Below are positions 1,623-62,619 of a DNA stretch of 64,000 bases, in pieces (positions within the stretch are counted from its first letter, which is position 1; each line of letters begins with the position of its first letter). The notes under the pieces are model-generated. The model was not told the DNA's origin, did not search any database, and worked only from the letters and a program-made list of their open reading frames with translations. Source of the DNA: Limonium bicolor (Eukaryota > Streptophyta > Magnoliopsida > Caryophyllales > Plumbaginaceae); NCBI GenBank assembly GCA_023374045.1, contig CM041779.1, positions 272,400,062 to 272,464,061 on the forward strand. Reading direction: 5' to 3'. The position numbers were made by a program, and so were the translations under genes.

Positions 1623-4600
1623 TGAAATACCCTGAACTTAAATGTGCTAATAAATGGTATAATTATGGTTTTCAAAGGCTAATTAAGTCCTTAAGAACAT
1701 TGGTTTAGAAAATGAAAACCAAAAGAAAGAGTAAAACGCGTTAAAGTCACAAAAATGCAAAAACACGTATTTAATTATCTTAGGAGGTATATAACCTTGA
1801 AAAGGATCCGAGAGGGATTCCTAGGGCTTAATTAGGCCTAAATAGTATGTGGGAACAATTCCCGAAGAAAACGGATCCAAATAAAGGGTTAAAACGCTAA
1901 CGGAGTCTTAAAGCGCGTTTTTCGAGAAAACCCAAAAACATGACTTTAAACAGTTAAATGACCCCATAAAAATTATAGTTGATCATATAACTATAATTAA
2001 ATATTAATGGGAGCCTAATAACCATTAAAATTAATTAAACGGAAAAAAATCCGGAAAACGCCCCGGTTATTGAATAGTGCCAAACGGGGACTTATGGAGT
2101 GTTAGTTGCTAAAAGACCAAAATGCCCTCACTTATTTTTGTTAAAATCTGGCCCCTTCCATGTTTTCCCACGTTTTTCCCCCTCTCTCCCATTAATTGAC
2201 TCTTAAGTCACAAGAAGACAAAAACAAATAAAGTAAAAGGTGTAAAAGTACAAAACTCACTTTTGAGACTCTCTCTCCTCATTTCCCCTCTCTCTCGTTG
2301 GTTTCTCTTCGTTTCTGTAGACCCACTGCTCTATCTCTTTCCTCCCTTCTTCTTGAACGATTTCAAACTCTCACATGCCTTCCTTGCCTTCCTCTTCATG
2401 CCCAAGCTTCAATAAAGCTCCAAATCGAAAATAAACTACATATTCTTGCTCCCCTCAACAAGAGCTTCACTTCTCTCTTTTCAAAATCATCAAAGGATGA
2501 ATTTGGTCTCCATGGGTATAGCCCATTTGAAGAGGAAATCACATGTTCATGAACTAGGCTGCATCCTCCTTGTTCCGAGGTAAGAAAAATCCAAAATACT
2601 CATCTTTTCTCCATTTCCTAGCTTGACCGATTTTGCCCAGCTTTGAACCTCCATTGTTGCTCCTATTATAGCTTTGTTTTATCTTCAAGAAAGGAGCTGG
2701 AGCCTTGCCTTGATGATTGACAAAAACTCAATTCTAGGGTTACAAGGTAATGCCCTAAATTTTGTGCTTTAAGCACCTTCCTCTTGTATACTAGATTAGT
2801 TCATGAATCTAAGTGTGATAATTAGTACTCATTGCCCCCATTTGGATATTGGCTAGAGGTTAGCAAGGGTGCATTGCTTCCTTGGCCGAAAATGACATGA
2901 GAAGAGGAGAAGAGAAAGAGAAGTTTGAGGCTTAAGGTAAATGGCTTACCTTAATGACTATCTATATGTTTTAGAGATTTTGGGATGGGAATTTAAAATG
3001 AATGAATAAAAAATTGTGTTGGAAATGTGTTTAGTGAATATAAGAGGAAATTTTGTGATGATGTTTAGTGTTTGGTGCAATGGTGAGTTCTGTTTTGAAT
3101 TAAGGGCCTAAGTGCCAAGCTATTTAAGTTGAAGTGTTTTGTGAAGGTTTATGTGAATATGTTGAACCTTGTGTGCTGGTAGAATTCATTATGGATTTGG
3201 CTAGTTGAGTTTTGGTTTAGGTGATGGAGATGATGAAATTGTGGATGTGTTAGTATAGTAACGAAGTTATGGCGAATTTTCTGTGGAAACCTAAGAGATT
3301 TAGGTGACTTGGTGAGTTGATGCTACCTAGGGTGAACTAGGTGTTTGGAGAGACCAATTGGAGTAGCTAAGCACCTTGGGGTGTTAGTTGGAGAAGTAAA
3401 TAGAGTGGTGTAAAAATCTGTAGCAAAAGTTTATGTTTTTAGTGGTTAAAATTCTAGGAAAGAGCTTAGTGTGCTTGACCTTGTAAATGGTGAGTGACTT
3501 AGGTATTGAGAATGCAAAAGACTAGGAATGAATATGGTATGGTCAAATGGTTAGGAGAAGGTTGAAAGCTATCATGGGGATGGTTTGAGAGTGCACTGAT
3601 GTGCATGGTGTGTAGAGAATGAGAAATAAGAGTGCAAAATTGTAGGATTAAGCTAGAATTGAAGGAAGAGTTTGATTAATGTTTTAGGAAGTTTTAGAGC
3701 ATGTTTAAGGTGTTTTAACATGTTTGGAAACATGTGGAAAGATTAGAAAAAGATTAGGTGAGGATTAAGGTTGGATTAGGAATTGAAAAATGGTGTTTTA
3801 GCAGCTTTTTAGCAGGGTCCAGGACCTAGCCCTTGGATAAGGTCCCGGACCACCCTTAAAAATGAGCCGAAAATCACTTCTGTAGGTGGTCCGGGTCCTT
3901 AGTCCAGGACCAAGACCCGGACCAAGTGAAAAAAATGGCCGAAACTACATTCCAGTGTTGGACCGGGACTTTAGGTCCGGACCAAGTCCAGAACCAGACC
4001 AAAAATTGTATTGAAAGTGTTTTAAAGCCTCTAAAAGTGTGGGGATTGATGGGTAATGGTATTAGATGATGTTTAGGACTTGTTTGGTGACATGTAAAGG
4101 TCATTAAAAGTGTAAACAAGTGATAGATTAAATGTGAAAGTTGTGAACCTAAAACCCCCATGAGTAAAATTAAGATTTACGGGACAATGGGGTTAAATAT
4201 GGGCGTACCAATTGTTTACGTACCGTATAGTCTTAATGTTAATAGGATCACTTGAAATGTTATCAGTGATTCAAGGATTAGCCGAGAACGTAAGACGACA
4301 CGTTAGGAAATCCCATGGTGAAAGGTATGGTATTCTTGCAACCTGTGTCCTATCGAGTTATACTCGGCTTGTGTGTCTGTGTGTTTTTATGAATGTTTAT
4401 GACTTTATAAGATAAAGCATGTAATGAGTTTACAGTAATTCATTTATGTACCGCGTTGTTCTTGATACCGTCTAAACTCGAGTAAGTGTTAACCCGTTAC
4501 CTAACCAAGTTAGGAGCACATAAGAGAACGGTATTCGGTTATAAACGTCCCAAACCACGGGAACGTTCTAACTACGGCTATTCATGTGTAAACTGTGGAT

Positions 4601-5714
4601 TGTGTTGTATGAATGTGTTACCTCCCCTGTGTGTGTCTAACTAGACTTATAACACTATGATGTGTCATGATGTAATAAATTTCATAAAGGAGCTTCTAAT
4701 CGATGTATAATTGGGGGGTGAGGAATCTGGTAGTTCTGGTCGCGCGCGTATGTATGGGAGTTGGTATCTATAGCAGATTCAACTCTCTCCCTGTTCGGTT
4801 GTTTTCCTTCTTGGAATTCAACCTTCCCACGAGCCTCATGAATGGCTCTCCTACCTTGACTTATGATTGAGGATAGGGGGATATTGTGTACGGTGTGTTC
4901 GGGCCTATACTATACCCGACACATCTAAGTAAAGTAATTGTGCACGGTGTGTTCGGATCTATATTATATCCGACGCATCTTAAGTAAAGTGTACATTCAC
5001 TAAGAAGAACGGTAATATGTTATGTACTGGGCACGACATGAGAATGAGGATATTCTCTAGGCTCTATAAAATTGGCTAACTCTTATTTCGGTCTGAGTCC
5101 TCACGTGACTCGTTCCTAAGATATGTTGTGTGTATGTTAATGTGTGATGTACGTTATTATGTTCGTGTACGTTGATCACTGAAATCAAACCTATGTTCAT
5201 TATGAGAAACACTACGGGTAGCCCGACTAAAACGGACAATTCTTGACTAATAAAAATGAGGTTTTGTTAAGGTAAAAACCCTCAAGGGCCTAAGCACACA
5301 GTAATGTAATCTAACAAGCAGTGATGTGGTAGTTTTATTATTTGTATTCCATTATTTGGAAATGTGTTGATTGTGAGTACGATGCGTGTTTATAGCGTTC
5401 CATGCATGATTTAAATAAATTAATCGCATGCTCAGACGACAAATAGTTGTGTGTGGCCCGGTAGCAGCGGGTAGCACGTCTACCATATCAGCAAAGGTGC
5501 TGAGCCCCTTTTGGGGTCACCCATTACTTTTCAGGTACAATGCAGTTGCCCTTCGTTCGAGAGTAGGATGGGAATTGCGATGCACGGGTAGTCTGTGTTA
5601 TGTTAGATGTATTTGTTAGTAGAGTGCAATTAGTTAGTGAATTCATGGATGTCATTCCTCTCGACTTATTCTCAGTTATGCTTGATAATGATTTCTAGCA
5701 GATTTGTGGTTTAA
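1623..5714 (+). mobile_element. Family A LTR, plus strand, lacking its 3' end
   Basis: The start TGAAATACCCTGAAC aligns with the start of the family A LTR at 20188. Shared landmarks follow in the same order: the segment ending in cccgaagaaaacgg, the ATAACTATAA block, a pyrimidine-rich leader, the three-hairpin repeat (3816-3995), the ACGGGACAATGGGG block (about 4178) and the GGTGCTGAGCCCC block (about 5496). The visible length is 4092 bp against 4358-4376 bp for complete copies. The last 250-300 bp, including the GGGTGTTACA end, are replaced by a minus-strand fragment at 5715. No gag-pol is attached. A Tekay/Del-type chromovirus is my best guess for the family, based on LTR length, terminal sequence and the Met-type primer-binding site of the copy at 20188. 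The small open frame at 2298-2552 is leader sequence and is not supported as a gene. Confidence 0.75.
3816..3995 (+). repeat. Three 36-nt hairpin units at 72-bp spacing (family A LTR)
   Basis: Units lie at 3816-3851, 3888-3923 and 3960-3995, so starts are exactly 72 bp apart. Each unit can fold on itself. In the second unit GGTCCGGGTC at the left pairs with GACCCGGACC at the right. The arms differ from those in the other LTR copies of this window but remain complementary. The function is unknown. Confidence 0.75.
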
Positions 5715-5930
5715 TGTAACACCCCAACTATAAACACTTACTTAACCACTGATCGCAGCGGATATACTACACAACAATTAACACAACCGACTGGTGTTAC
5801 ACGCTGTTAGCCACCCACGTGGCTAACAAGGCCAATACATACATAATGTACCGGTCTGATGGATAATAACTATAAAACCCAAGTAGCTGGGCAAGTGGAC
5901 TGAGAGTAAAGCAAAATAACTCTTCTATAT
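5715..5930 (-). mobile_element. Family A LTR 3'-end fragment, minus strand
   Basis: On the plus strand it begins TGTAACACCCCAAC, the reverse complement of the GGGTGTTACA end of family A LTRs. It continues through the family landmarks CGCAGCGGATAT, a GTTAGCCACCCACGTGGCTAAC block and CCGGTCTGATGG. Similarity fades at about 5880-5930. It abuts the truncated plus-strand copy head-on. Confidence 0.65.
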
Positions 5931-12612: not shown

Positions 12613-13490
12613 GGAAAATTACTGCCCAGTAGTGGATGCAGGAAGGAAACTTATCCCAAATTGAACTTTTCAACAAGTCAAACGAGGTCAAGCCGTCAAG
12701 GGCGCAATAAGGTGGAGCAAGAGCCCAAAAAACCAAGCTAGCAGTTCAGAAATCTCGTCAAATACCTGTAACTGAAATTGATTTCCTTGTACCTAAGTTT
12801 GGAAACTTAAGCGGGTCTGAATGATACTGATTATAAAGAAAAAGAAAAATGCTATCAAAAGCAAAGTGAAACCCAAGTTGGAAAACGGGGAGAAGCTTTT
12901 TTCTCCCAAGTTAGTGCATATATATTAATTAAACAAGGTCAGCTAACGACCAGTGATTTTTTATTGAGTAAAACCCTCTTTAGGTTTTGGTATAATACGG
13001 TATTGTGTTTATTATGGATAACCAGTTTGAGGTTAAGTATCTCTAACTACGAGCCTGTGAGCTATAGCTCTGTTAATAAATCATTAACCTTTTGATGACC
13101 TGTCAGCTTATTCACTAAATAATGTCAGACTGAACAGAAAACACTGCTTAAACAACATCATCTAAGTCCCTCCCATCCCACTGCTATTTTCCTAAAAACG
13201 TCAACCCTAACCCAAGAATGGTCCACACATTTTTAGGAGGTTGTTTATCTGCTACGCATATGATAAGGATAGATTTGTTCTTGGTTGTAGACCATTCGTG
13301 AGTTAAGGTTGAAATTTTTTATAAAAGGAAAATTTCACCAAATACCATTGAGTTTTTGTTTAATTCACGATATACCACTATGTTTATAAAATTACACAGG
13401 ATAACACTAAGTTTTTACTTATTTCATCAGATAACACTCTATCTCATATTTTATTAAATGTTCCATTAATATTCTAGGAAAATACATTAA
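12613..13490. other. Upstream region of the ELMO gene, plus unassigned sequence
   Basis: 12613 to about 13000 should contain the 5' UTR and promoter of the minus-strand ELMO gene; I found no clear TATA box. 13330-13480 (TTTCACCAAATACCA, then GATAACACTAAG and GATAACACTCTATC) looks like a degenerate repeat remnant, but I cannot assign it. The family A LTR begins abruptly at 13491. Confidence 0.35.
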
Positions 13491-15299
13491 CGGTCTGATG
13501 GACCGGAATACCCGAGTACTTAAACAAATACAATCAACACTTCATTTCCAAACCGAGTCAAACACAACTCTCCAATCAATATAGTACTCAACACTTACAA
13601 TTCAATATACCGAGTCTACTAGCGTACAATCCAAAATACATTCCGTTCTCACAAGTCTAAACAAAAGTATCCATGAGTTTAATACCCTACTCAAGTCTCA
13701 TAGAGTCTACATACTTCCCAAAATATGAAAGGGTGTAGAACGTGGTACACCGGCTACTAAAAAGGGCTACAAGCCCATGTATAACTCAATACGCTATCCA
13801 AAACAATCCTAACTACCAAAGCATAACATCCCGGTCTCTCTCTCGACCAATCATCCATCTCGAGTACCTGAAATAAAAACGATGGCCCCAAAGGGGCTCA
13901 GCACAACTTGCTGGCATGAAATTCGCATACCCCGGGTGCTAACGGGGGTACGCCTATTACTTGGTCGAATACATGAGGTTCATTTTATTTCAAGCAAACA
14001 TGCTAATATGAACAACATCTTAATCATGCAATGGCAACACTCATGCATAGAGTATAACACAAACAAATGGAAAAACAATTCACAAGTCATCCATTCATTA
14101 GTCACTGAGGCCTTGAGATTCTCTTTCTTAAGCACTAACCTCACATATTGTTAGTTAATTTCTCATCCGGGTTAATCGGATGTTTTCTCAACTCTTTTAC
14201 TCCTGATCAAGACTCACACTAGTCTTGATCTTACTTTACCAATTATCCTTCTCTTGAATAATCTTAAGTCAAGTCGGTTAACCTCCTGGTAGAGACAAGA
14301 CTATCTCACCACCGGGCTTTAGGTTGGCTTACTTCTCCGGGTTGCTGCCCATAAAGGGTCTGGACCTTGTTGGGAAGGTTAGGCCAGGATTTGGAAAACA
14401 ACCTCTCGTGTCTCCTCATCCTCACGCGTGGCCAAAACTATATCGGGCTTCTCACAACTCCAAGTTACCATTTTCTCAAAGTTAGGACGGTCTCATAGTT
14501 AGGGAGTTAGTGAGAATCTTTCATTCCATACCTCATGGTTAGCACACTTACACATCCACGCAAATAAGTACTTCATCCAACAATTATAACTTTCATGAAT
14601 TATACAAACTTCATAGTCTTGCCACAACTCGATCAATGGATAGTAAATCACAAGACATACGGAAATTGTAACACCCAACCGTTAATCTCGTCATTACCTC
14701 TTAAACCGTTACTAAATACTCCTACTCACGCAGCGGAACTCTAATTACAAGAGGGTGGAACAACGCCATTAGCCACCCATGTGGCTAACCAGGCCTTTCT
14801 TACTTACCGTAACGGTCTGATGAACTGGAACAACCGAGTACTAACTTCATAACAACACAATACTCAATTCCTTTCTTTACTATACCGAGTCTACAATATA
14901 CGGATGCCGATAACATACTCGGACTTTACACCTCTTTCAAATGCATTAGTAATTACATCTAACTACCATGCTTCATAGCAGTCCCCGTCATACTCTCTCG
15001 AACGGTGGTCAGCTTCAGTACCTGCACACTAAACGTTCCCCCTAGGGGTCAGCTTACGCTGCATATGAAATTCGCATATACCGCTGCTAACCCGGTACGC
15101 CGACTACTTTGGGTCGGATATACATGGAGTTCATTTTAATCAAACAACATGCGTCATGGCAATACAATATATATGTATATCACACAAGGAATCTACATCC
15201 AATCACGGAACACGATTCCTAACTAACATAACAAGGTTGTTAGTGGTAACTGGTTACTCTTAGGCATTGAGGGTTATTCCTCACTATGCCTTGTTTACT

Positions 15300-15485
15300 T
15301 ATTCAATACCTCACCCGCTCTCTCGGGTTACTTATTCGTATACACCCCATTCTCTGGGCTACTCATTCTTATACTACCACCCATTCTCTCGGGTTACTCA
15401 TACATATACTCACCCTTTCTCTCGGGTTATTTATACTCGTTATCTCACCCACACTCTTGGGTTATTCATACTCAAGCTCTCGTAG
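15300..15485 (-). repeat. Short tandem repeat in the solo LTR (unit about 36-40 bp)
   Basis: About five imperfect units are built on CTCTCGGGTTACTCATTC followed by an ATACTCACCC-like part. The same LTR position in the plus-strand copy (44715-44945) shows GAGTA-rich repetition, so this is a fast-changing tandem zone of the family. Confidence 0.6.
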
Positions 15486-16709
15486 ATTCTCGAGACACAC
15501 AGGTCTCCTACTCCGCTTGTTACTCTTATTACATACTTAAGCCAAAACTCATGGCTCTCTAGCATAGTCTTACTTCCCCGGTTTCGACCCTACTCTGGGT
15601 CTAGCATGGTGGGAAGGTTCAACTAGCTCACGGAACTCTCTCTTAGTTCCTATCTCTTTTACTTAGGTCCGACTACTCTCAGACTACTCTCGTTCCCATA
15701 CGCTCCCCTCTCAGAGTTTTAATAATCTCATGTATATTAGTCTAGAAGCATCATTCTCGATGTTTCTAATGACTTTGGGAACTTTACTTAAATTCGGGTA
15801 ATCTTAGGTTTAAGGGTTACCCTCACAATCATATGATTATACTTTAGGATATTTTCTTATACCGGGTAAAATTCCTCATATAAGAGTCGACCGTATCTCA
15901 GGGAGTCACATAGTCCCTTAGGTCTCTTTTAACCTTTCTTATATGTTTACATTATTGGACTAACTTCGATCCTCTCGATGGAGGTCATTTATCTCTCCAC
16001 TCATATTTATTTCGTGGATTTGTTCAATAAGGTTCTCTAACCGTTATCGGGTATTTACTCAACCGCACATCTCCTCACACTCTAGGGAGTTCATATGTTT
16101 ACGATATCGTTATACTTTATCGATAGTTTATGTGTGTTTGCATATTTCCATTGCTTATGAGACTACCCGTACTACGGGTTATTAGTCAATCATTACTCAC
16201 TATGAGTCGGTCTTAGGCACTCTGTTAAACCACACCGGCATACAATATTTAGCTCATACAACATACTTCAAGGCATACATAATCAAACAGGGATTATTTT
16301 CATGCTTTACTCTTGATTAAGCCGGCACACAAACACACAATCAGAGTAACTCGGTTAGCATACGGGGCATGAGAAAATCATACCTTTCACCGGGGTTTTT
16401 ACTTTACCGTGGCATCTCACCATGCTCGGGTCACGCACGACTCTCTGATAATGTTTCAAACATTATTATTAATACTAAGATCATGCGGAACATAATTAAA
16501 TGTTATTCCCGTAGTTACCCCGTTATCCCGTTTATCTTGGTTTCACTCTTGTTCATTTGAGTTCTCACTTCTCAAACACTTCTAACACTTCTACACTTCT
16601 TAAGGCCTTACATCTCACCAAACAAGGCCTTAACATCTTATAACATCATTAACATTCAAACCCCCCTCATTTAAAACCTTTAAAACACTCTCTGTAGGTT
16701 TCTGGGGGT

Positions 16710-16889
16710 GATCCGGGACTTGGTCCTTACCCTAAGTCCCGGACCAATACTCATCACAACTCTCGGGTGGAATTTCAACACTGGTCCGGGACCTTGTCCC
16801 TATCCCAAGTCCCGACCAAACACAGCTTGCACTCTCGGCCTAAATAAATGGGGTGGTCCGGGTCCTTGTCCATGGACTAGGTCCCGACC
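16710..16889 (-). repeat. Three hairpin units in the solo LTR
   Basis: Units lie at 16710-16745, 16783-16817 and 16855-16889, with 72-73 bp spacing; two units have lost one base. The arms are of the TCCGGGACTT / AAGTCCCGGA type. They occupy the same LTR position as the units at 3816, 19465 and 43402. Confidence 0.75.
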
Positions 16890-19464
16890 GACCCTGCTAA
16901 AACCTGCAACATACATCATTTTTCAACCCCAATCAATCTTAATCCACCTTAATCTTTCCATAAACTTTCCACAAGTTTTCCAACATTTTAATCACCCTAA
17001 AACAGCTCTAAAACTCTTCAAATCATAGGCTCAAACCTTTCAAACTCTGCTCAATTTCACACATTTTCATTCTCATTTAACACTAATGCGCACTTGTGCA
17101 TTTCTAACTTCTCCTCAACCCTTTCATTAGGCTCTCTTTTCATTTTGACCATTCCACATCTTCTAAGGTAATGCACAACCATACCAAGTTCCAAGGCTCA
17201 CTCTTTAAGCCTAAATCTCCTTTGTTTTTTATAAACTCCTAAGGCACCTAACCACTCTTTTGCTACAGATTTTAGCATCAATTTCCTCCCCTTGAACAAG
17301 CCTTCCTACAGTGGTTAACTAACCCAATACAAATCTCCATACATACCTAGCCATTCCTAGTTATTCTCCCCACAAATCATCACTTAAACCACTTAGATTA
17401 CCCACATAAATTTTGCCATAACTTGGCTACTTTTCTAACATTGCCAAGTTCATACCACCATATAAATCATCCTAAAACTAGCCAAACCACAAGGGTTTCT
17501 ATCAGCACCAATAATTCCCGTTAATCAAACAAAACTCATTAAACACCATAAAGCATTATTCATCAAATACATAGCTCCAAAACAAACATTAACTCACAAA
17601 TGTTTTCTCACTTGCATTTATTTCTAAGCAAGCACATTATCACCACAAATCAAGTGGGGTTCATTCATTTTATCACCCTCCCAATTCCTAATACATATAG
17701 GATACCACTAAGATAGGTTTCTTACCTTAAATTTCTTAAGTTTCCTTTTATTTCTCTTCTCCTCTTCTCCCCTCTTCTCTTCATTTCCCTCGGCCAAGGC
17801 AATTCAATTGCCCAGTCCTCTAGCCACATCAAATTGAAGTAAGCACTAAGGAACTCTCTTAGGCTCATCAAATAACCTAGATTCACAAGGATGCTTAAAG
17901 CACCAATAGGTTTTACCTTTGGAGTTTCTTGAATGGTTTTCAACTCTTGAATCTTAAGAGGGACTCCCACCACCATTAAGCTTGGAGAATATCTCAACAA
18001 GGAAGAAAAGCTAGTCATTTACCAAAAGCCAAAATCGGCCAAGGTGGGAAATGGAGAAGCATGACTTTTTCATGGATATTTTTACCTTGTTAGGAAGAGG
18101 AAGCTTCAACTTCAGATTATGTGCTTTTCTCCTCAAATGGGCACACCCATGAAAATGAAACTCACCTTTTTGAGTTTTGAAAATAGGGAAGTGTAAGGGT
18201 TTGATGAGAGGAGTTCAAATATACAATTATTTTTCGATTCGGAGCAAGGATGAAGCTTGGCAAGGAGAAGAAGGTGGAGAAGCCATGTGTGGAGCTTCCA
18301 TGTCGCCACACACAGAGAGGAGGAAGGAACCGTGGAGAAGGGGAAATAAAGAAGAAGAAGAAAGTGAGAGGAAAGAGAGTGAGAGAATAGTTTTATGTTT
18401 TTACTTTTACTACTTTTCTCTCTCCTCCTTACTTTCTTTTCTTTCTTTATTTGCTAACTAATAAACATGAGAGGGGAGTCGTCTTATTAATAAAACCGGC
18501 CCCCACTAGCTAGTTAAGCTGGAGCGTTTTTCGGTTTCTGACAGAAAACGCTCGTTATTTTACCCGGTTTGGCACTATTCACTAACCGGGCCCGTTTTTG
18601 GATTTTTCTCGTTTCTTTATTTTTAATGGCTATTAAGCTTCATTATACTTAATTATAGTTTATAATCAACTATAATTTTTACGTTACGGGTCCATTTGAC
18701 CACTTAAAGTCACGTTTTCGGGTTTTCTCAAAAACGTGCTTTAAACTCCGTTACGTTTTAATCCATTATTTGGATCCGTTTTCTTCGGGAATCATTCTCG
18801 TATACTTATTAGGCCTACTAATCCTTAGGAATCCATCTCGGACTCTCGAGATCATATATCTCTTATACTCGTTTAAACGCGCATTTTAGCGTTTTTCGCT
18901 TTTCAAGCGTTTTCTCTTTTCTTCTTTGGTTTATTCTTTTTACCAATACTATTTAGGCACCATTAGGCCTTTTATAATCATATTAGAGTAATTTAATCGC
19001 CATTTTTAGATCCGGGGTATTAAAGAAATGCAATAAATCATTTTCGTGCATTTATCTTGATTAGGTGATTGCATATAAACACACAAACACACAAATCAAG
19101 GAAACCTCGTTAGCATACAGGAGATGAGAAAATCATACCTTTAACCATGGAATTACTCTACCGTGTCATCTTACGTTCCTCGGATTATTCTCGATTCACT
19201 GATAACATTTCAAGTGGTTCTATTAACATCAAGACAAAACGGTATGTAAACGACTATTACTCCCGTACTTAACCCCGTTGTCCCGTTAATCTTAACTTTG
19301 CTCAAGTGTTCTTCTCAACTTTCTCATTCTTTTCTCATACTTGTTTATACTTCTAATGACCTTTACATGTCACCAAACAAATCCTAATCATCATCTAATA
19401 TCATTACCCATCAATCCCCATTCACTTAAGGGCTTTAAAACACTCACGGTTCAATTTTAGGTGT

Positions 19465-19644
19465 GGTCCGGGACTTGGTTCGGCCCTTAAGTCCCGTACC
19501 AACACAGAATACAACTTTCGGGTGCAAATTTAGCCTGGTCCGGGACTTGGTACTGGACTAAAGTCCCAGACCAACTCACTATGTTACTCTTAGCTTAAAT
19601 TTTAGGGTGGTCCAGGACTTGTTCCTGGTCCTAAGTCCCGGACC
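19465..19644 (-). repeat. Three 36-nt hairpin units in the outer minus-strand LTR
   Basis: Units lie at 19465-19500, 19537-19572 and 19609-19644, again exactly 72 bp apart. The arms are GGTCCGGGACTT and AAGTCCCGGACC with single mismatches in each unit. The central loops differ between units. Confidence 0.75.
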
Positions 19645-19766
19645 ATAGCAGAAATCTATCAAATTTGACAGTTTTGAATCCTACTCCAAATCTCACCCAA
19701 CTCTTTTCCAATCTTTCCACATGCATCCAAACATGTTATAACACCTTAAACACTCATTAAACCTGG

Positions 19767-20187
19767 ACTTTTCCTGTCCGTGGCCCTGGACTTTTCAAAA
19801 TTTTGTTTTCTTTTCGATTCGACTTTTTTGTATAACTAGGTTAACTGGGATCCGTGGTCTCGGACATTAGGTCCGTGGCTACAGACATAATTCAAATTTG
19901 ACCTAATTCTGCCTCCGAAACCCTAGTTTAGGTCGTTTTAATTTCCACTTTAATTTTCTGTCAAAAATATCAAAAATACAAAAAAAAATCAGAAACTTGC
20001 GCTCTTAGGTTAAAACAACTTTGTAGTAAGCCGTAAATAAACTAAGTAGAGGAAAATGACCTAGGAGGGGTAATGAAAATAATTTTAACCCTAAATAAGT
20101 CATATACCAAGCCCCCGAACCCGAACTCTCCTTTCCTAATTTAATATAGGTCAAAATTAGGTGGCGACTCATGATAGGTTCCAGTGA
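19767..20187 (+). mobile_element. Fragment of an Ogre/Tat-like LTR 3' region
   Basis: CTTTCCTAATTTAATATAGG followed by GTCAAAATTAGGTGGCGACTC (about 20130-20170) resembles the segment near 27900-27940 inside the 6.86-kb LTR. It is a divergent relic between two family A LTRs and codes for nothing. Confidence 0.45.
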
Positions 20188-21931
20188 TGTAATACTCCGA
20201 ACTTAAAAATGGTGATTCAATTATTATAAATATGGTATTTAAGGGCCTAATAGTTCCTAAGTAATTTTGGTAAGGAAAATAAATCCAAAAGAAATAAGAA
20301 AACGCTTAAAAAGCGAAAAACGCTAAAATAAGCGTTATATAGGCATGGGATGTACGAGACCTCGGTTAGAGTATTAGGTGGATTCCTAAGGCTTATTCAT
20401 GCCTAATTAGTATACGGGAATGATTCCCGAAGAAAACAGATCCAAATAATGTGTTAAAACGCTAATAAAGCTTTAGCGCATGTTTTTCGAGAAAACCCGA
20501 AAACGTGACTTTGAGTGATCAAATGAACCCGTAAAAATTATAGTTCATTAAATAACTATAAGTAAGTGTTAATGGAAGCTTAATAACCAATAAAATTAAA
20601 GAAACGAGAAAATTCCGGAAAACGGGCCCGGTTAGTGAATAGTGCTAAAACCGGGCAAATTAACGAGCATTTTCTATAAAAGACAAAAAACGCTCCAATT
20701 AGTATTACTGTAGTGGGGCCGGTTTTTATTGCCTAAATAAGTCTCCCCTCTCTTACTAAATAAGCTAGTTAAGAAAAGAAAAAGAAGAAAAGTAAAAAGC
20801 AAAAAGTAAAAAGCAAAAAGCAAATAAATCCTCTCTCTCACCCTTATTCCTCTATTCTCTCTCCTTCCCTCCTCTCTCCCAGCCGATTCCTCTCTTCTCC
20901 TCCCTCTGGTTGCTGCGATTTTGAAGCTCCCAAATAAGCTCCAATGGCTTCATCTCTTATTCTCCATGCTCTAGCTTCATTAAGGCTCCAATCACAAAAA
21001 TAAGTACATATTCTTCATCTCGTCATCATCCTCTATCATTCTCTCTTTTCAAAATCTAAAAATGAGGAAGTTCATCTCCATGGGTTCTACCCATTTGAAG
21101 AGAAAATGGTACCAAATCGAAGCTTGGAGTCTCCTCTCTCCATTAAGGTAAAACTTTCCATGAAAAACTCATGTTTCCTCCATTCCTCTTGGTAGCCGAT
21201 TTTTCCCCATTGTAATGCTCTATTTTTCTCTCTCTTTTGAGCATTATTCCAACCTTCTAATGGTGGTGGGATCACCTTCTTGGATCAAGGATTAAAACCC
21301 CTCTTAAAAGACTCCAAAGTGTAGACACCAAAAATTCTCACCCCCATAAAGCAAATTTCGAAATAATAAGAGGGGTCGTCGCCTTTCTTTTTTCGAAACA
21401 TATTAGCGTGCGTGCCATAACGAAACCGTCATTTTATAACCTTTTTCAAAGCATTTCATAAAAAAAATGATTTTTTAAAAATGAATTTTCAAACAATAAT
21501 CCGGTTTTAAACCCATTCATTTTATTTTATTTACTTATCTTATTATTATTTTATGTATTCCATTATTATCACTCGTTTGTTTTATCTATTCAATTTTATT
21601 TTCATTTTCATTTACTTTATCCCATGTATGCTATTTCTTACTATATTCTATCATGTACTCTTCATTTTATCATCATCATTTTAGTACTATTTCATTATTT
21701 TATGTACTTTATATTGCGTTAATTCATTTGTTTTTCATATTGTTATGTTTTACACTTTAATGATTATACTCCATGATCTCATGTCTCTTAGGAAGAAACA
21801 TTTCATTTTATTTAAACTCTTTCGTTTTACTGTATATCTTCATTTATAGCGCTAGCGTTTTTGAAAGGATTACTCAGCTCGAGGAAAGGCTCTTGTATTA
21901 TTTCTCTACTTTATATGTCAAGTTCAGTCAT

Positions 21932-34860: not shown

Positions 34861-34862
34861 AC

Positions 34863-35402: not shown

Positions 35403-35483
35403 CTTTCAATCACATTCATACACTCACGGTCGCGTCCCAATACAGCAGTAAACCCGCAGTGAGAATTTTTGGTGCCCTCAACC

Positions 35484-41639: not shown

Positions 41640-43401
41640 CATTCCAAACGAAAAAAACCTTTTCCCCTTCTGAGGTGACTCTCATATCTCTCAAAACACT
41701 CAAACCTTCTTCGGTTCCCACAAATTTCAAACCATCAGACTCCAAGTCTTGTTTATTCACTAAACCCCAGACTTTCCTAGATCTTTATCCTATACTCATC
41801 CGAATTCTGCAATTTCCTCTTCTAGGCGTTGGCTTGGCAGAAAAGCTCGCCTCATCCACTCTCTCTCTCCCTCTCTTTTCTCATCCTAATCCTATCCTTT
41901 GGCTTTAACTGAATCTCTATAATAAGGTTTTGAAAGAAGGTAATCCCGACAATTGGAGACCGAGGTTTCCTCGGGCACCAATCCGAAGTCGTGGTTGTTG
42001 CCACTTCTAAGGGGTGTAACACAGTGCGAACCCACACAGAATCTTTGGTATGACCAGATAAGTCCTATCCATAGGCAACAAATCACAGAGTCAATTAACG
42101 GTTCTTAGAACCCTTCTCCTCCCTTCCTAGTTCCTTTGGTCAAACTAGGTGGCGACTCTAGTCAATTTCCGCCCTTAGGGCATAAGTCCGTGTGGGGCCC
42201 ATTGAGAGCGGGTGTAGTGCTCACTAGCATTCCCCTTAAGCTTTCTGGGAAAGACGGACGATGTAGTAGGTATTTGAGGGATGCCGAGAATAACGGGTTT
42301 TCACCCTCCACAGAATGGCATTTCAGGATCTAGGCTTTTCAGTCAGGCCATAGTTAGATAGACCCCCCCTCATACCGAAAAATCACCCTCCACACAAAGG
42401 TAAACCCTAGATTTGGTATTTTAAGCATTTCAATGAATTAGTATTATCCCAAGGGTTAGAATTTTAATTACACTTATTTTGTATTCCTTGGGTGATGGGA
42501 ATGGAGTTTGGCAACTCCATTGCCCACTTAGCCAAATTTGAGAAGAGGAAGAGCAAAAGGAGATTGGAAAAAGAAAGAAGAAAGTATGAGCTTAAGGTAA
42601 GAAATCCTTCTTAATGCCAATTTTAATGCATTAGAATAATGAGAATGGGTAAAGTAATGAATGAACCCAAAATATTGTACTAGGAATGTAGTTGGTGGAA
42701 GTTTGAGAGTATTTGTGAATTAATGTTTGGATTGAAGGCCTTAGAGCCAAGTAAATTGGGTATGTGTATTGGTATTGTTGTTTGAGAATATTTTGGTAAA
42801 TTAAGATTGCTTTGAGTGCTGGTAGGACCCCTTGTGGGTGTGGCTAGATTAGGAATGGTAATTGGTGAGAATTGATGAAGTTGAGGATGTAAGATTTATG
42901 GGGAGGTTATGGCAAAATTTTAGTAGAAATAAACATTTTGGGTGACTTGGTGAATGGGAGAACCAAGGTGTGTATTGGGTTGAGTAGAGATGTTTAGTAA
43001 CCATGGAATGGTAGTTGGAGGATGAGAACAAAGAGTGTAAAAATCTGTAGCAAGAAGTGTTGTAATGCCTTGGAAAAATTATAAATGAGTTAGTGTGCAA
43101 GACTTAGGAAAATGAGTGTTGGACTTGGGTATGGATAGTGTATTTATCTAGGAATGAATTGGAATGGTAAAAGGAAACTGTAGGAATGCACATGTGTGCA
43201 AAATGTAAAAATGAGAATGGAAATTTGTAGAATTTGAGCAAGGAGTTGAGTAAGGATTGAACCAATGTTTTGAAGAGGTTTAGAGCATGTTTTAGGGTGC
43301 TTAAACATGTAGGAAGCATGTGGAAAGATTAGGAAATGATTAGAGGTGAATTAGGGGTTGAAAACTAGTGAAAAACTGTAAATTTTGACAGTTCCAGGGG
43401 T

Positions 43402-43581
43402 GGTCCGGGTTTGCAAATCGGTACACAAACCTGGACCATAGCAAAAGCACGGCATGAGATCATCCTAAGGGGTGGTCCGGGTTTGTAAACCCGGACACAA
43501 ACCCGGACCACATGTAAAACTAGCCAGAAACGGACTTCAGTGATTGGTCTGGGTTTGTAACCCCGGACACAAACCCGGACC
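43402..43581 (+). repeat. Three 36-nt hairpin units in the plus-strand family A LTR
   Basis: Units lie at 43402-43437, 43474-43509 and 43546-43581, exactly 72 bp apart. In the second unit GGTCCGGGTTTGT pairs perfectly with ACAAACCCGGACC, and an internal AAACCCGGAC offers a competing partner for the left arm. Confidence 0.8.
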
Positions 43582-44714
43582 AGGCTAAAAATGTAACAGA
43601 ATGTGTTTTAAGGTGTCCTAATGATGGGGAATGGATTGGGGATGGTTTTAGATGTTGTTAAGGCCTTTTTTGGTGATATTTAAAGGTCCTAAGAAGTGTA
43701 AACAAGTGTAGGAAGTGAGTGAGAAGTAAGAACATAAATAGACATGAGTAAAACTAAGTATAACGGGACAATGGGGTAAGTACGGGCGTAGTAATTATTT
43801 ACGTACCGTAGGAACATAGCATTAATAATAATGTTTGAAACATTATCAGTGGAACAAGTGTGAACCAAGGAACAAGGGAACACATGGTAAAGATAACCCC
43901 GGTGAAAGGTATGATTTTCTCATGCCCCGTATGCTAACCGAGCTACATTGATTTGTGTGTTGTATGCCGGCTAATCAAGATTAAAGCATGAAAACGGTTT
44001 ATTGCCTTTCATTGTATGTCTTGTTGTATGTTGTATGAGCTAACCCTTCTTAAATGATTGCGTGGCTTAACTTAGTGTATAGATCGACTCCTAGATGAGT
44101 CTTGTTGATTAGAGACCCGTAGTAAGGGTCGTGATGCGAACTAACGAAAACATGGAAACACACCAAAACTAACGAACCAAGAAACGGTAACGTAAACCAA
44201 TGAACTCACTAGAATGTGAGAGAGTGTACGGGACTAGTAACCTCCCGATAACGGTAAGAGAACCGAAATGAACAATCCACAAAACAATAAGTAGTGGGAG
44301 TATATATATAAGTAAGCTCTATTAGAGGTATTGATGATGGTGCAAGACATAAACAATGAGAGTAGTAAAAAATGATGAGGGATCTCCAAACCCCTTAGAA
44401 AATTAGTCGACCCACAATGAGAGGACCCGACTAATGTGAGTAATGTCCCGAACATGAGAGTATTTGATACGTTGGGGAAACCCTTAAATTTGAGAATACT
44501 AGACGATGGTAATTCCCTAAGCAAGTGGAGGTTATTGAGAGAGATACTTCTAGGCTAATCCATGAGATTGTAAGATACTCCGAGAGAGAAGTGTTGGGAA
44601 TTTGAGTAGTCCGGTAAAAACGGACATTGAGTATTTGAGGAGCTAAGTGTATAGCCCCTTTGTATTTGTAGGCCCGGTGGCGAGTCTTGTGTATGACTCC
44701 GCCTGGAGGCCAAA

Positions 44715-44945
44715 AGTAATGAGTATTGAGTAATGCGTATGTATGAGTAAAGTAATGAGTATTGAGTAAGAAGGAAGTATGAGTATGTAATGAGTATCGA
44801 GTAATGAGTAAGTACGAGTAAGGTAAAGAGTATGGAGTACTGAGTAGGGAGTAAGTATTGGTAGTAGTGAGTATTGAGTAAAGCACGAGTAAGGTAATGA
44901 GTAAGGTAACGAGTGAAGTATGAGTAAAGCAACAAGTAAGTAAGT
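44715..44945 (+). repeat. GAGTA-rich low-complexity tandem region
   Basis: Words such as AATGAGTATTGAGTAA and GAGTAAGTA alternate for about 230 bp. The long minus-strand frames across it (44431-44994, 44555-44935) encode runs of YS, LL and TH and are repeat artefacts. Confidence 0.75.
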
Positions 44946-45648
44946 ACATGAGTTGTGCAAGCCCTATGAACCCGAACGGGGAGAAAGAGAGCATCCGATT
45001 AAACCGGATGAATGAATAACTAACGTGAACGGTTGACTGAATAATTGTCTTCCCTAGTAAGTATCGAATCCTGTATATGTATGTAAGTAATGATGCTTGT
45101 ATTATTGTAATATTAGTATGTAAGTATGCATGTAAATGAACTCCATGTATATCTGACCAAAAGTAGTCGGTTTACCCCGGTTAGCACGCGGGGTATGCGA
45201 ATTTCATATGCAGCAATTTGCTGAGCCCCTAGGGGCACCGTTTTTATATTTACAGGTACTTCGAAGCCGACCGCCGTTCGAGAGTGTAGGACGGGGCTGT
45301 CATGTAAGCATGGGTAGTTGAGTAATAGGAATTGTATTTGTATTGTAATGCGAATTTGGAAGTCCAAACTGTATCAGTAATTTAAGGATTGTAGTAGACT
45401 CGATATAGTAAGATATTGGAATTGTATTTGAATTATGATATGAGTATGAAACGGAAAGTAATGTATTGTGTAGAGTACTCGGTATATTCACGCCATCAGA
45501 CCGATAGTATGTAGTAGTGTAGCTGGCCTTGTTAGTCACGTGGGTGACTAACGGCATTGTACACCCGCCGCTGTGTATGTAATATCCGCTGCGAAGATAA
45601 GTATTTGTACAGTAATGACGGTATTAGCGGTAGGGGTGTTACAAAAAG

Positions 45649-53448: not shown

Positions 53449-56400
53449 TGTAACACCCCAACCCGAAATCCAATAACCTGTACGACGATCACTCCCAAAT
53501 AAAACACAAACTGCAGCGGAAATAAATACAACAACCGGGCGGTATTACAATGCCGTTGGCCACCCTTGTGACCAACAAGGCTAACTCCAAATACAATCTC
53601 CAAAAGTCACGGTCTGAATACGAATACAATCCGAGATACTAGGAATCAAACTCAAATGTAAAATACTTAAGTAAAACAAATAACTAGTAGGAGACTCCCA
53701 TAGCTTGAATCTACCCCACCTACACTCGGTGTGGTAATCTTCTCAACTTCAGGTGCCTGAAAAATGGGGGTGCCCCCAAAGGGGCTCAGCAAACAATGCT
53801 GGTATGGAAAACGTGCAGCCCATCGTCTACCGGGCCACACCAACTACTTTGTCGAATACATGCAGTTCATTTTTTTTTGTAAAGCTGTAAACAAGCATAG
53901 TATGATAATAACAAGCATCCATACAAGGACAACAATGTTACATAAAACAAGACTTCAGAAGGTCAAGTTAGATGAACTGTAATCATTTGATAGTTGTTGG
54001 GTCCACACAGTGGGACTGACATGGTATATAAGAGTGTGTCAATATAATGAAGGTATAGTGACCTTGTTATAAGAGGTGGGTACCAGTTCCCTCAGAAGAT
54101 AACGTAGGTTAACTCCTGTACTTCAAATGGTGGGTATCGTACCCTCGAGAGAAATAGAGTCTTCCTCTCAACTTAAAATGTTACGGTACGGTCCCGGTGA
54201 GTGACATAGTGCACCCAGAACTCCCGTTGCGACGTAAATTGAATAGGAGACGACCTGAGACAGGTACAACTCCTGTAGCATGCATGGCCAGATCCAACTG
54301 GGCTCCTCGTTCTCGTAGTATAGAATTGTTAGGTGTTAACCAAGTATGTTAAACCAGAACTCAAAGTGCATTGTCAGTTGTCACGTTTAGGACAACGACG
54401 TTTGTTATAAAGTGAAGTTAGTGAGAGACTTGTGTACAAGTTCTCGGTATAATAAAGCGCAGGTATTTAGTCCACTGGTATAGTAGTGTTTGTATGCGTG
54501 GGACATACACGTCGCAGTTAGCATCATTCACGCACATAAAATAATACCACAGTGCACAAGAGTAAACAACATTTTACATTAATTATCTTGGTCGTTATTT
54601 CAAACAACAGATAGCACACAAGCCGGTGTAATCCGGTAGAAAACAGGTTGCAAGAATCCCATACCGTTCACCGTAGACTGTACTTGTTTTAATTCCCGGT
54701 CAACGTCTGGTCAAACAAAGTCCTAGAATAGGATTAACTGAGAGGGTTAATTTATGTTACCCTTATATAATAATTTTATTGGATCATTCAACAATTTCGT
54801 ATTTGTTATTTCATGTGAGGTTTATTTCCTTTAATTACCTCATGATTTAATGTATAACTTATTTGTTATTCCTTTTGATTTATTTATAAATCCTTTAATG
54901 TACATGTATGTATTTATTTATTCATGTACTATATTTGTTGTTTATTTTAATTGTCTAGGTGACATAACAACTTATAATTTCTGAACTATATTTATATGTC
55001 ATACATGGACATGATATTCTTATAGTTTTTATTATTCACCTTTTAACCATAAGTACTATTTATCGATTACCTTTAAATTCCTTATAACTATATAAGTCAT
55101 AGTTTTGACCTCATGACTCCTTTAACCAAAATTCTTTCTTCTAATTCCTCCAAGTATCCATATAGGACCTATATTTATTTAAATCTAAATTCTTACCCTT
55201 ATATTTCGGTTATTTACAAAACAACCTCATTAATTCATAAACTTTATATTTAAATTCTAATCTCATTATATTATATAGTTTTAATTCCTTATTTAATTAA
55301 ATTCAAAAACTACCATTAATATTTTGGTATATTTCTTTTTGGAATATTTTAACTTTTCAAAAATTACCATTTAGCCCCTTAAATTCTCGGCCTACATATA
55401 TATTTTCTATATTGCAAATTAACCACAAAATCTTATAATCTTTACATAATGCCTTATAAATTATAGTTTTAATTTTAATTCTCCACAAATGCCGAATATA
55501 TATATAAATTCTTAAATTACAAAGCTAACCCAAAGTAATTCAGCTTTGTCATATACTTTTCATTAATTACATTTTCACCCCAAAACTTTATAATAGTTAC
55601 TTAATAACTTATAAACTATAGTTTAAATATTTAATTCCTCATAATTTCGAAAGTGAACTTAATAATTCTCTTAATTATGAATTCGCCCACTAATAAGTTC
55701 CAAACTTTCATAACAACTTTTATAAATTACATAATAGCCCAAAACTTTATAAAATGTATTTTAACACTTGTTTAAATTATCTAAAATTCATAAACTTAAT
55801 TCCTAACCTTATATTATAACATAATTACTCCAAATATACCCTTAACTCTCGGCTTTCACAATTATACACCAAACTTTGTAAAAATTGCATTTTAGCCACA
55901 TAACTTAATTAATTAGCCATTTAAGCACTAATAAAATATTTTAACTCACCAAACTTTGTAGTATAAGTTTATATACATAAGTAGCTCATAAAAATCTATT
56001 TTTCACTTAGACAATTCGGCCATAATTAAATAACTACCATATAGTATATAAAAGTGGATTTATATGTCATAATAAATATACATAAATTCATAGTCATATA
56101 ACTCATGTAAAAATTATTGTAATGTCTTATATTGATTCTTAGCTCAAAATAAAGTATTTTTGCCCTTGACAATTCGGTTTGAATTGATATGTAACATAAA
56201 TAAATTTTGTGACACAAAAATGTGTCTTAAGGTAAATATTTTCCATATATGTTATAGATTATATTTTTGGCATATAATACCATATAGTTTCGGTTTTAAT
56301 TACCCTAGGAGATGTACATAATTTTTGTATAATTTTTAGAAGCTTAACAAAGCTTATAACATAAAGATTTACTTAGTAAACTTACTTCTTAACAAAGGTG

Positions 56401-58790: not shown

Positions 58791-59061
58791 TGTTGGCTAC
58801 TTGAAGTTGGCGCTAAGTATAGGATATGTTTAGGATATTCTTTATATATAGTTTTCTCTCTTCTTTTGTCCAAATCAGAGAACTAGTATTTGCTTGTCTC
58901 CTGTAAGACTCTCTCGGCAGAGATGAATAAACTTCTTGATTAATTCTCTTCTAGATCTTCTGCATTGCTCTCATGGTATTAGGGCTAGATGTTCTCACGT
59001 AACCATCTAGGTCTCTTTTCTCTCCTGATTTTCTTTCTCCTTCCTACTATGGCTTCGCCGG
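58791..59061 (+). mobile_element. Copia-type short LTR, primer-binding site and start of gag
   Basis: A possible LTR runs from TGTTGGCTACTTG (58791) to TCTCTCA (58973); it includes a TTATATATAG box at about 58842. TGGTATTAGGGC at 58974-58985 is a Met-type primer-binding site with one or two changes. An ATG followed by GCTTCGCCG at 59049 would be a gag start. The sequence is cut at 59062 by a minus-strand LTR. Confidence 0.6.
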
Positions 59062-60777
59062 TGTAACACCCCAACTCGTAATTTGCAATTAACGGTAATT
59101 AATAATGTCAAACTTAAATGAAATCGCAGCAGATAAATAAACCAAACTCTAGTGTTACATTAGTCACCCACGTGACTAACTAGGCCTTACTAACTCCAAT
59201 GTAACGCTTTGAATGACTGAATACTTACGAACTTAAACTTCAACAAATACTTATACACACTGATTTTTACTAATCGTTCCAAAATACAAGTTCGTTCCAA
59301 CTTACAGCAACATACATAAATGTATAAGATCTAACCGAGGTAATAACAGACAAAATTACATCTGGTCCAAAAGTCTACCCCACCTACACTTGGTAGGGTC
59401 GAATCTCCATCAAGTACTTGAAAAATGGTAGGCCCAAATGGGAACAACACAACTGCTGGTATGAAAACGTGCAACCCACAAGCTACTAGGCCACACACAA
59501 CTACTTTGTAGTTTACATGCGGTTCATTATTACAATAATATAAATGAAACTGTAACACCCAACATGCAACATATAAAGCAAGCAATCATTCTATACAATA
59601 ATATAACCCAACAGAAACAAGACATCAGCATATCGGGTCAGTGTTCTGTTCCTTCCTGGGTCTTGAGATTATTTTGGAATCTCGTTATAGACCTTAATAT
59701 TTACTTATCATGGACAATCCACACAATGGGATTGCCACTATCATAGTCAGTAACTTAACTTATCCCGTGTATGTTTAAACCCTATTAGAAGAGTACCAAA
59801 CTCTAATGAACCACCGACGTTGTGACATACAATAAGTTGGGTATGATAAACCCTTTAGATGAGATTATGACTCTCGTATTGTATACTTAACCGGGTACGT
59901 TTAAACCTGAAGGGAGTAAAGTAAACTACCTCAACAACCGTCAAAAAGAGACGGACATTTAATTTGGTACATTTAAGAAACCTAGTAGGCAAGTATACAA
60001 CGTCCCCCACAACCACCATCAATGAAAGACGTACATTTAATTGGGTATATATAAACCTAGTGGGCGAGTATAAAACTTCCCCCACAACCACCGTCATGAC
60101 GTACATTTAAAATTGGAGACGATCTGATGCAGATATGACCTCCTAAACTCAGCATGCATGGCAAGGACCTCATGGACTCCTCGCTTCCCCGTTATCCCAT
60201 TCGTGTTAGAATTCTCAATGGAACAATCGTTCGACTTCTAGGGAGATAAGTTCGAACATCACATTTCGGATCTCGACAGGGAAGTTAGTGAGAAACTTGT
60301 ATACAAGTTCTCATTACGTGAGTACGCAAGTTCGTAAACATCTTGTTATTGCATATACCATATGGGTGATTAAACTTACTCTAAGGTATAGTTAGTATTT
60401 CACAACATATAATGTCCAGTTAAACATGAACAATAATACGAAAACACATACAACATATTCAGGTAATTATCTTGGTCATTGTCACATACAATAGATAACA
60501 CACAAGCCGATGAAACTCGGTAGTAAACAGACTGCAAGAATCTATACCGTTCACTGTAGACGGCACTCGCCTAACCTCAGTTGTCGTCCTGTCTATCACA
60601 CTCCTATAATTTGATTAATTGAGTGTTTTAATTCACTAATTACTCTCGTATCATATTTAATCGTATTTACTAAACATTTAAGTGTTTTGTTTCCATTATT
60701 TTGTGAGAGTTATACGATTATCTCTTAATCTTTATTAACCCATCTATTTCATGACTAAGTTATACTTAAGGTATTAT
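59062..60777 (-). mobile_element. Truncated minus-strand LTR related to the 53449 copy
   Basis: It starts TGTAACACCCCAACTCG after a GCCGG flank. It shares CACCCACGTGACTAACTAGGCC and the GAAAACGTGCAACCCAC block with the solo LTR at 53449. It is broken at 60778 by another LTR and does not resume. The frames at 59331-59585 and 59855-60106 are LTR sequence. Confidence 0.7.
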
Positions 60778-62619
60778 TGTAACGCCCCTATCGATAATCC
60801 CTTACTTACCATCTAATTCTCCCGTTCATCCTACTATTCGCAGCGGAAATACTACTACTATGGCGGGTGATACAACGCCGCTAACCGCCCATACGGCTAG
60901 CAAGGCTTGCACTACTTACAGTAACGGTCTGATGTCTAGAAAATACCGAGCTACTACATTACTTACCAAATACAAATATCGTATACTTACAAAAGTGATT
61001 ACCGAGTATCCAAGTATATTCAATTACATCCTTTCACTAGCGTACCAAAAATAATGAGTTTCCACAAACCACTCATCTATACCAATTCTTAATTCTTTCA
61101 ATATCCAAAAGGGTGTACCCCATGGTATACCGGCTAAACAAAGGCCTTTAGCCATGTACAACTTGGTACACTATTCAAAATCTATTAATTACATCAAAAG
61201 AAATCATCTTGATCACACCAAGCCTTCACCCTTCACGAGCACCTGTAAAATATTAAAAATAGTGCCCCAAGGGGCTAAGCAAAAACCTGCATATAAACTT
61301 CGCATATACCGCGTGCTAACTAGGGTACACCGACTATTTTTGGTCGACTATACATGCGGTTCATTTTAGATATGCATACATGCTTACAATTACAAAACAT
61401 TCATACACAATACATTACACACAACTGAAAGCAAATCACAAGCCAAACAGTAATTCAATAGCATACACAATACTTACCTTCTCAAGGGTCAGCCAATTAC
61501 ACATCCGGGTTAATCAGATGTTTTATTACTCTTTTACTCATTACACAATACTTACACAATCATACTCATACTTTACTTACTTACTTTTCCATACTCACTT
61601 ACTTACTCTTACTTACTTACTTTTACTCATGTTAAGTCGGTATGACCTCAGGGCAGGGACTACACCATCCCACCACCGGGCTTTAGGTGGCTCACTAATC
61701 CAGGATGCTACCCATTTAAGGGGTTTGGGCCGTGGAAAAGATTAAAGCCAGGAATTGGATCCAACCTCTTGTGTCCCCGCCTCCTCACGTGTGGCCGAAA
61801 CTATATCGGACTTCTACTCATTCCAATTTATCAATTTATTATGTTAGATTGGTTAGCTTGTTAGGAATTAGTTAGAAGTCCATCACAATGTCATCCGGTC
61901 ACACACAGTACCTCAAGCATACACACACTTCATTATCATCCATACATTTCATGAATTATACAAACTATGATTTAAAGATAATATTCAACCAGGAACAATA
62001 TAATATAATCACAAGTAAGCATAATAGTTCCAATTCGTGCTTAGGTGATCAATTAGCACACAAGCACACAAATCAGGGTAGCCAAGGTAGCATACAGGAC
62101 ATGAGAAGTTCATACCGTTCACTGTTGTACTTGTAACCGACTTTCCTTCGGTGTTCACAATTCAAGTCCTATAACATACATGGAGTTATATGGTTAATGA
62201 CTTATTATTGATTTAACTCTTTATTCTATTACCTTTCCCTATCTATACTTACTAGTTATTACAAGTTCTAAGTGGTTATAACCCTTTTTCATACTTTAAG
62301 TTTTTTTCCTTACTCAACAATGATGTATTTCTATATATATATATGTATGTGTGTATACATATTTGTATATATATACATATGCCTATTACAATTACTCTTT
62401 TTTATATGACTCGACCGACCTTACCCAGGGTCGGCCCCAAGGTCGGTCGAAGTCAGTGTGTTTCATTACCGAAATTTCCAGACCCGACCGACCTTGTCAA
62501 GTCCGGTCCCAAGGTCGGTCCAAGTCAGTGGGTTCTGGTTCTGGTGATTTAAGACTAGAATGACCTTGCAAGGTAGGTCCCAAGGTCGGTCCAAGTCAGT
62601 AAGTTTCCCGGTTTGAATA
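60778..62619 (-). mobile_element. Truncated minus-strand family A LTR
   Basis: It starts TGTAACGCCCCTATCG and follows family A order: CGCAGCGGAAATAC, the GCTAACCGCCCATACGGCTAGC block, GGTCTGATGTC, CAAGGGGCTAAGC, CATATACCGCGTGC and a TTACTTACT-rich tract (about 61520-61640). It ends with the hairpin zone at 62412-62600, then breaks at about 62619 into copia sequence. Confidence 0.7.
62412..62600 (-). repeat. Three hairpin units, diverged copy
   Basis: In the first unit CGACCGACCTT (62412-62422) pairs perfectly with AAGGTCGGTCG (62439-62449). A second unit pairs at about 62486-62520 and a third, weaker one ends near 62591. The base sequence differs from the GGTCCGGG type elsewhere, but the position in the LTR and the architecture are the same. 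Confidence 0.65.

Follow-up and report, generated by a model that had tools for sequence, protein, structure and literature searches.

Do the hairpins that lie side by side in a family of plant long terminal repeats (LTRs) mark a folded RNA, or do they act as sites on the DNA? The question is raised by 64,000 nucleotides (nt) of the Limonium bicolor genome (GenBank assembly GCA_023374045.1, contig CM041779.1, positions 272,400,062 to 272,464,061 of the forward strand), called the window throughout, in which five LTR copies of one retrotransposon family (family A; copies A, B, C, D and E) each carry a zone of three palindromes. The palindrome array is real and has been kept in diverged LTRs. 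We read it, giving this a little less than an even chance, as a cis-regulatory array of dyads in the middle of an LTR of about 4.36 kb that would be recognized by sequence-specific DNA-binding proteins.

Palindrome zones in five LTR copies

In copies A, B, C and D, three palindromes of about 36 nt follow one another at 72-73 bp from start to start within a zone of 180 bp; the zone of E measures 182 bp by its coordinates and has the same layout in other letters. The zone begins 2193 (A), 2135 (B) and 2134 bp (D) after the LTR start, i.e. mid-LTR. Every unit consists of a left arm, a loop module and a right arm, each of about 12 nt, and D2 alone among the 12 units of A-D pairs at all 12 arm positions. 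For B1 and B2, a one-base gap was placed in the left arm to keep the register and scored as unpaired.

3816..3851, + strand: palindrome A1, 11 of 12 arm positions paired
3888..3923, + strand: palindrome A2, 11 of 12 paired
3960..3995, + strand: palindrome A3, decayed, 9 of 12 paired
16710..16745, - strand: palindrome B3, 11 of 12 paired
16783..16817, - strand: palindrome B2, 10 of 12 paired, one position being the gap
16855..16889, - strand: palindrome B1, 10 of 12 paired, one position being the gap
19465..19500, - strand: palindrome C3, 11 of 12 paired
19537..19572, - strand: palindrome C2, 11 of 12 paired
19609..19644, - strand: palindrome C1, 11 of 12 paired
43402..43437, + strand: palindrome D1, 11 of 12 paired
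43474..43509, + strand: palindrome D2, 12 of 12 paired
43546..43581, + strand: palindrome D3, 11 of 12 paired
62412..62449, - strand: palindrome E3, arms CGACCGACCTT/AAGGTCGGTCG
62484..62521, - strand: palindrome E2
62556..62593, - strand: palindrome E1, decayed

The original prediction, made from the letters of the window, gave the spacing correctly: exactly 72 bp in A (starts 3816/3888/3960), C (19465/19537/19609) and D (43402/43474/43546), 72-73 bp in the copy at 16710 (starts 16710/16783/16855, spacing 73/72) and a diverged set at 62412 (starts 62412/62484/62556, spacing 72/72). Three of the arm pairs it quoted are perfect, namely GGTCCGGGTTTGT/ACAAACCCGGACC in D2, GGTCCGGGTC/GACCCGGACC in A2 and CGACCGACCTT/AAGGTCGGTCG in E3, whereas GGTCCGGGACTT/AAGTCCCGGACC is perfect in no unit and has one non-Watson-Crick position in each of C1, C2, C3 and B3.

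The window holds 28 hairpins of at least 10 bp with at most one mismatch and a loop of 3-16 nt, whereas 40 local dinucleotide shuffles average 6.6 ± 2.7. Of the 28, 12 have an arm GC content of at least 50% (0.5 in shuffles, maximum 2), and the five zones contain 11 of them, which excludes chance as the origin of the palindromes. Under the same hairpin definition 11 of the 15 units score, while A3, B1, B2 and E1 fall short. At 54900-55400, the place expected for the zone in a diverged relative (F), no hairpin of at least 8 bp was found; in another relative (G), E has removed the part where it would lie. A special constraint on zone length was considered and is not shown, pairwise alignments placing compensating gaps there.

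The LTRs were mapped by self-comparison of the window together with ends read directly from the sequence.

1623..5640, + strand: LTR copy A, with 5' end TGAAATACCC; its 3' end is missing and the limit given is approximate
14667..19024, - strand: LTR copy B, complete solo LTR of 4358 bp with target duplication ATTTC, inserted into copy C
19025..20170, - strand: LTR copy C, the upstream piece, which holds the hairpin zone and has no sharp upstream limit
20188..21319, + strand: LTR copy D, 5' piece; a 21-kb element at 21320-42394 splits the copy
42400..45643, + strand: LTR copy D, 3' piece, containing the hairpin zone and followed by primer site TGGTATTAGAGC
60778..62605, - strand: LTR copy E, a diverged, truncated copy with an approximate upstream limit; abuts a Copia reverse transcriptase (RT) frame

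The 3' piece of copy C lies at about 13480-14661, the two pieces of D sum to 4376 bp, and the kinship of E to the other LTRs covers its 3' part only. Divergence among A-D is 24-32%, and all four keep the array. Hallmarks of LTR retrotransposons are present in B, which has the ATTTC duplication and the ends TTTAATACC..TGTTACA (TT in place of TG), and in D, with the ends TGTAATACT..TGTTACA followed by TGGTATTAGAGC, a primer site of tRNA-iMet type. From the LTR termini, the LTR length and the iMet-type primer site, we take family A to be probably a Tekay-like Ty3/gypsy chromovirus; no coding region of the family was recognized in the window in a Pfam scan covering 20 of the 153 listed frames. At 13480-20170 the family is nested in itself, solo LTR B lying within LTR C with its 5-bp target duplication intact. 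At 62600-63837 a Copia RT frame of 406 amino acids, still open, starts mid-domain at the end of LTR E and its hairpin zone; this junction is a rearrangement breakpoint beside the palindromes.

Matched arms and loop modules as candidate protein-binding sites

Arms are more alike within one LTR (identity 0.87-0.88) than between the same units of different LTRs (0.75-0.77). The two inner spacers are 0.59 (A), 0.50 (B), 0.58 (C) and 0.49 (D) identical within an LTR, about 0.54 on average, which equals the 0.54 found between LTRs at the same position. When LTR membership was permuted, the real grouping of the arms ranked 12 of 576 and that of the spacers 119 of 576, the flank after unit 3 being counted as a third spacer.

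The loop module shares in this likeness. It matches the right arm at 7.9 of 12 positions in A-D (4.4 ± 0.4 in shuffles) and the left arm at 9-11 of 12 in E. Loop modules of D fit the right arms of D best (8.8 vs 6.2-6.8), those of E fit the left arms of E (10.0) over those of A-D (6.4), and over all four LTRs A-D the own pairing of loop module with right arm ranks 2 of 24. In five of six LTR pairs conservation is lower in the zone (0.63-0.70) than in the sequence that follows it (0.71-0.83), B-C being the exception (0.76 vs 0.72). Set-wise likeness of the arms and an arm-like loop module are not predicted by a simple hairpin role, and a fast-changing array with mutually matched parts suggests sites that are read by a common partner.

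In the proposed mechanism, three 72-bp units of three 12-nt modules would provide nine half-sites per LTR, and sequence-specific DNA-binding proteins, most likely the host's, would bind the dyads and switch transcription of the element. Because all half-sites of one LTR would have to suit the same factor, a shift in its preferred sequence in one lineage would shift them jointly, and the complementarity of the arms would be a by-product. The spacers would be free in sequence and nearly fixed in length.

Several observations weigh against such a regulatory array. Set-wise change depends mainly on D and E, and the loop modules of A and C match the right arms of another LTR slightly better than their own. 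None of eight plant motifs scanned for occurs in all five zones. A TATA box shortly after the palindrome cluster, as in the Sirevirus LTRs compared below, is not found in A, B and D, and A, B, C and D have no TATA-like motif at a shared distance downstream: the nearest TATAWA lies at 543 (A), 1274 (B), 115 (C, only 440 nt searched) and 718 nt (D). E has TATAWA 5 nt past its last unit, in AT-rich sequence.

Two motifs recur in some of the zones, in counts that are exploratory and uncorrected. RCCGAC cores number six in the E zone and one in B, with none in A, C and D, and GGNCCC occurs three times each in A, B and E and is absent from C and D. By eye, five of the RCCGAC cores at 62412-62593 sit in arms and one in a loop module; RCCGAC is a DRE-type motif.

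Covariation, RNA folding and other explanations

The original prediction held that the arms change together and that different letters with preserved pairing point to selection on a folded RNA or DNA. Pairing has indeed been kept. Watson-Crick pairs fail at 15 of 144 arm positions in the 12 units of A-D (two of these are the gap in B1 and B2), against 34.7 ± 5.2 broken pairs if the arms had drifted independently from a perfect ancestor to the divergence now seen (20,000 simulations, minimum 16), a contrast that is optimistic since the simulation takes a star phylogeny, a perfect ancestor and independent units. These counts and the covariation counts cover A-D, the arms of E, with different letters, being set aside. 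In the alignment, 93.7% of pairs are standard against 85.2% when shuffled, and the covariation score is 0.34 against 0.19; none of 500 shuffles reaches either value, though for the score, as the tool itself warns, relatedness alone can have this effect. Pairs with changes on both sides (4 of 12 vs 3.1; 186 of 500 shuffles reach this) and further pair types (9 vs 9.1; 364 of 500) are not unusual, in an alignment where the aligner set the B1/B2 gap at the end and so broke some of their pairs.

Nearly all of the joint change separates D and E from the other copies. Among A, B and C there is almost none, own arms pairing at 10.56 of 12 positions and arms swapped between LTRs at 10.39; swapped-arm pairing drops to about 8 of 12 once D is included. 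Because own and swapped arms are nearly equal in A, B and C and D drives the difference, the signal is carried by few independent events: a lineage-wide exchange in all six arms of D, from ACTT/AAGT-type to TTTG/CAAA, smaller changes in A2 (an A-U to U-A swap) and in A1 and B1 (C-G), and E. The covariation case for RNA is weaker than first held.

It is possible, though less likely, that the zone works as RNA, with hairpins or between-unit pairings folding in the sense transcript to aid export, packaging, dimerization or processing. Since every left arm of an LTR is able to pair with every right arm there, alternative folds or RNA-RNA contacts would force the arms to change jointly. In keeping with this, an arm finds nearly as good a partner in another unit of its LTR as in its own unit (10.46 vs 10.75 of 12), and the minimum-energy folds of A, B, C and D employ pairings between units. 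Sense-strand zones fold better than shuffles in all five copies, at z -6.0 (D), -4.7 (C), -4.6 (A), -4.9 (E) and -2.6 (B), the fold of B being matched by 4 of 200 shuffles, but the antisense strand of D, where this strand was tested, folds equally well (z -5.5). Similarly ambiguous are the non-Watson-Crick pairs of A-D, which include six sense-strand G.U and three A.C: all six purine-pyrimidine mismatches in B, C and D are sense-strand G.U, whereas all three in A are A.C. The G.U excess was rejected as a sign of RNA because it is confounded; in each of the three LTR pairs compared, C/T differences per base exceed G/A differences on the sense strand, and such an excess alone would favour G.U. 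Of the original prediction, the retention of pairing under changing letters is borne out. The G.U/A.C comparison and the two strands of D favour neither RNA nor DNA, and the set-wise likeness of the arms and the arm-like loop module fit symmetric half-sites for a protein no worse than they fit an RNA fold. No special retention of CpG was seen (observed/expected 0.53-0.80 in the zones, 0.67-0.75 in LTR pieces). An Rfam search of the window gave nothing at gathering level; below the threshold, the 3' piece of LTR D gave two matches, with E values of 0.26 and 0.48, which were taken as chance.

We regard it as slightly more doubtful that the array is maintained by mutation without function, with reverse transcription or DNA repair switching template from one inverted arm to the other and so copying arm to arm and unit to unit. 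Such copying would account for joint arm change and for the resemblance of arms in one LTR, and few events would suffice, given that A, B and C show hardly any covariation. Against it, the spacers escape homogenization (the inner spacers of D are 0.49 identical, its arms 0.92-1.00), and the array is kept in four LTRs that have diverged by 24-32%. That a single palindrome was tandemly triplicated recently or independently in each lineage, which would make likeness within an LTR a matter of descent, is very improbable. In its favour, the inner spacers of E are 0.69 alike, so that E may be partly re-amplified, and position does not group the inner spacers of A-D by themselves (4th of 8 arrangements). 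Against it, the inner spacers of A-D have the same mean identity, 0.54, whether they are compared inside one LTR or at matching positions of different LTRs, and same-position matching ranks 5 of 216 once the flank after unit 3 is counted.

A second hairpin, of the type GTTAGYCAC-NNGG-GTGRCTAAC, lies about 90-130 nt before the LTR 3' end.

45531-45552, + strand: 9-bp hairpin
14768-14789, - strand: 9-bp hairpin
60880-60901, - strand: 9-bp hairpin
53555-53576, - strand: 9-bp hairpin
59159-59180, - strand: 9-bp hairpin
5806-5827, - strand: 9-bp hairpin

All 9 bp are paired in each of the six aligned copies, which were chosen by eye for having the hairpin (A and C are without that part of the LTR). 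Four of the nine pairs have changed on both sides, as reached by 2 of 500 shuffles, and all five non-Watson-Crick pairs are sense-strand G.U; the surrounding 101 nt fold little better than shuffles (z -0.1 to -2.2). With its cleaner RNA-like covariation, this hairpin is a better candidate for a conserved RNA structure in this LTR group than the triple array.

Neighbouring elements and known palindromic LTRs

The window abounds in nested LTR elements. The 21-kb element inserted in D (21320-42394) has 6.86-kb LTRs that are 98.1% identical, a CAAAG duplication and a primer-like TGGCGACTCTGCTGGGGA; its internal 7.3 kb holds no frame above 192 amino acids, and that frame, the sole internal one scanned, has no Pfam match. 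It is young and probably non-autonomous. Tandem arrays of 50-bp and 180-bp units lie just 5' of its 3' LTR (34477-35417). Elsewhere, about 460 bp at 11488-11949 are self-inverse and contain palindromic AGAAATCGTCTTTTCAAAAGACGATTT units in repeated form, and four frames at 50.4-52 kb match alliinase-C in Pfam, a domain of plant TAA1-type genes.

Retroviruses and plant retrotransposons have tandem enhancer repeats in U3, where an LTR segment of 50-80 bp is directly repeated to give two to three copies. The array described here differs in that each repeat holds a long palindrome, and the palindromes are separated by sequence that has diverged.

A closer comparison is offered by the Sireviruses, a Ty1/copia group whose LTR boxes are palindromic with a CGG-CCG core and element-specific letters, lie upstream of the TATA box, are commonly >85% identical within one element and are proposed to control its transcription (PMC2829016). 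The motif is reported to be Sirevirus-specific and absent from the classic Ty1/copia elements compared, with at least eight copies per element and LTRs of about 0.5-1.7 kb in the rows of Table 2 (PMC2829016). Family A shares with them several palindromic LTR boxes, the CGG/CCG core, element-specific letters, likeness within an element and GC-rich surroundings (PMC2829016): most arms of A-D contain CCGG or CGG/CCG, and those of E read ACCGAC/GTCGGT. It differs in having three units in a 72-bp register, three 12-nt modules with a long loop, and a 4.36-kb LTR (4358 bp in B, 4376 bp in the pieces of D). Counted within LTRs, there are three palindromes each, or nine modules with the loop modules. 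The Sirevirus junction of LTR and primer site is given as CA-ATTGG-TATCAGAGC, with TATCAGAGC complementary to methionine tRNA (PMC2829016), and D reads CA-AAAAGTGG-TATTAGAGC. Because LTR length, primer junction and a nearby TATA box all disagree and no coding region is present, the array of family A is not classed as Sirevirus.

In maize, one study places the hairpin peak in Copia LTRs, with Ty3 elements generally lacking an obvious peak, and links LTR secondary structures to small RNAs and methylation (PMC10760457). Hairpins are likewise concentrated in LTRs here, but in a family that is probably Ty3/chromovirus. Targeting of palindromes by insertions (PMC6911290) was considered and set aside, the insertions of B in C and of the 21-kb element in D, both with target duplications, lying outside the hairpin zones. 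Among the open-access titles and abstract openings listed, none named such an array outside Sireviruses. An exact scan with one conserved LTR stretch found no match in IMG/VR or GTDB genomes, as expected of non-plant collections.

We would tentatively go further and propose a retrotransposon LTR outside the Sireviruses in which nine modules form a dyad array and all change their recognition sequence jointly from one lineage to the next, as would be expected of an array that coevolves with a sequence-specific host or element factor or escapes one, the geometry being fixed and the letters free. Covariation in an LTR is by itself no proof of RNA structure. Should the array function as the Sirevirus boxes do, control by palindromes in LTRs would have arisen in a second, long-LTR group of plant retrotransposons, and the combination of fixed geometry with exchanged letters would let one ask whether control sites chase or flee a sequence-specific factor.

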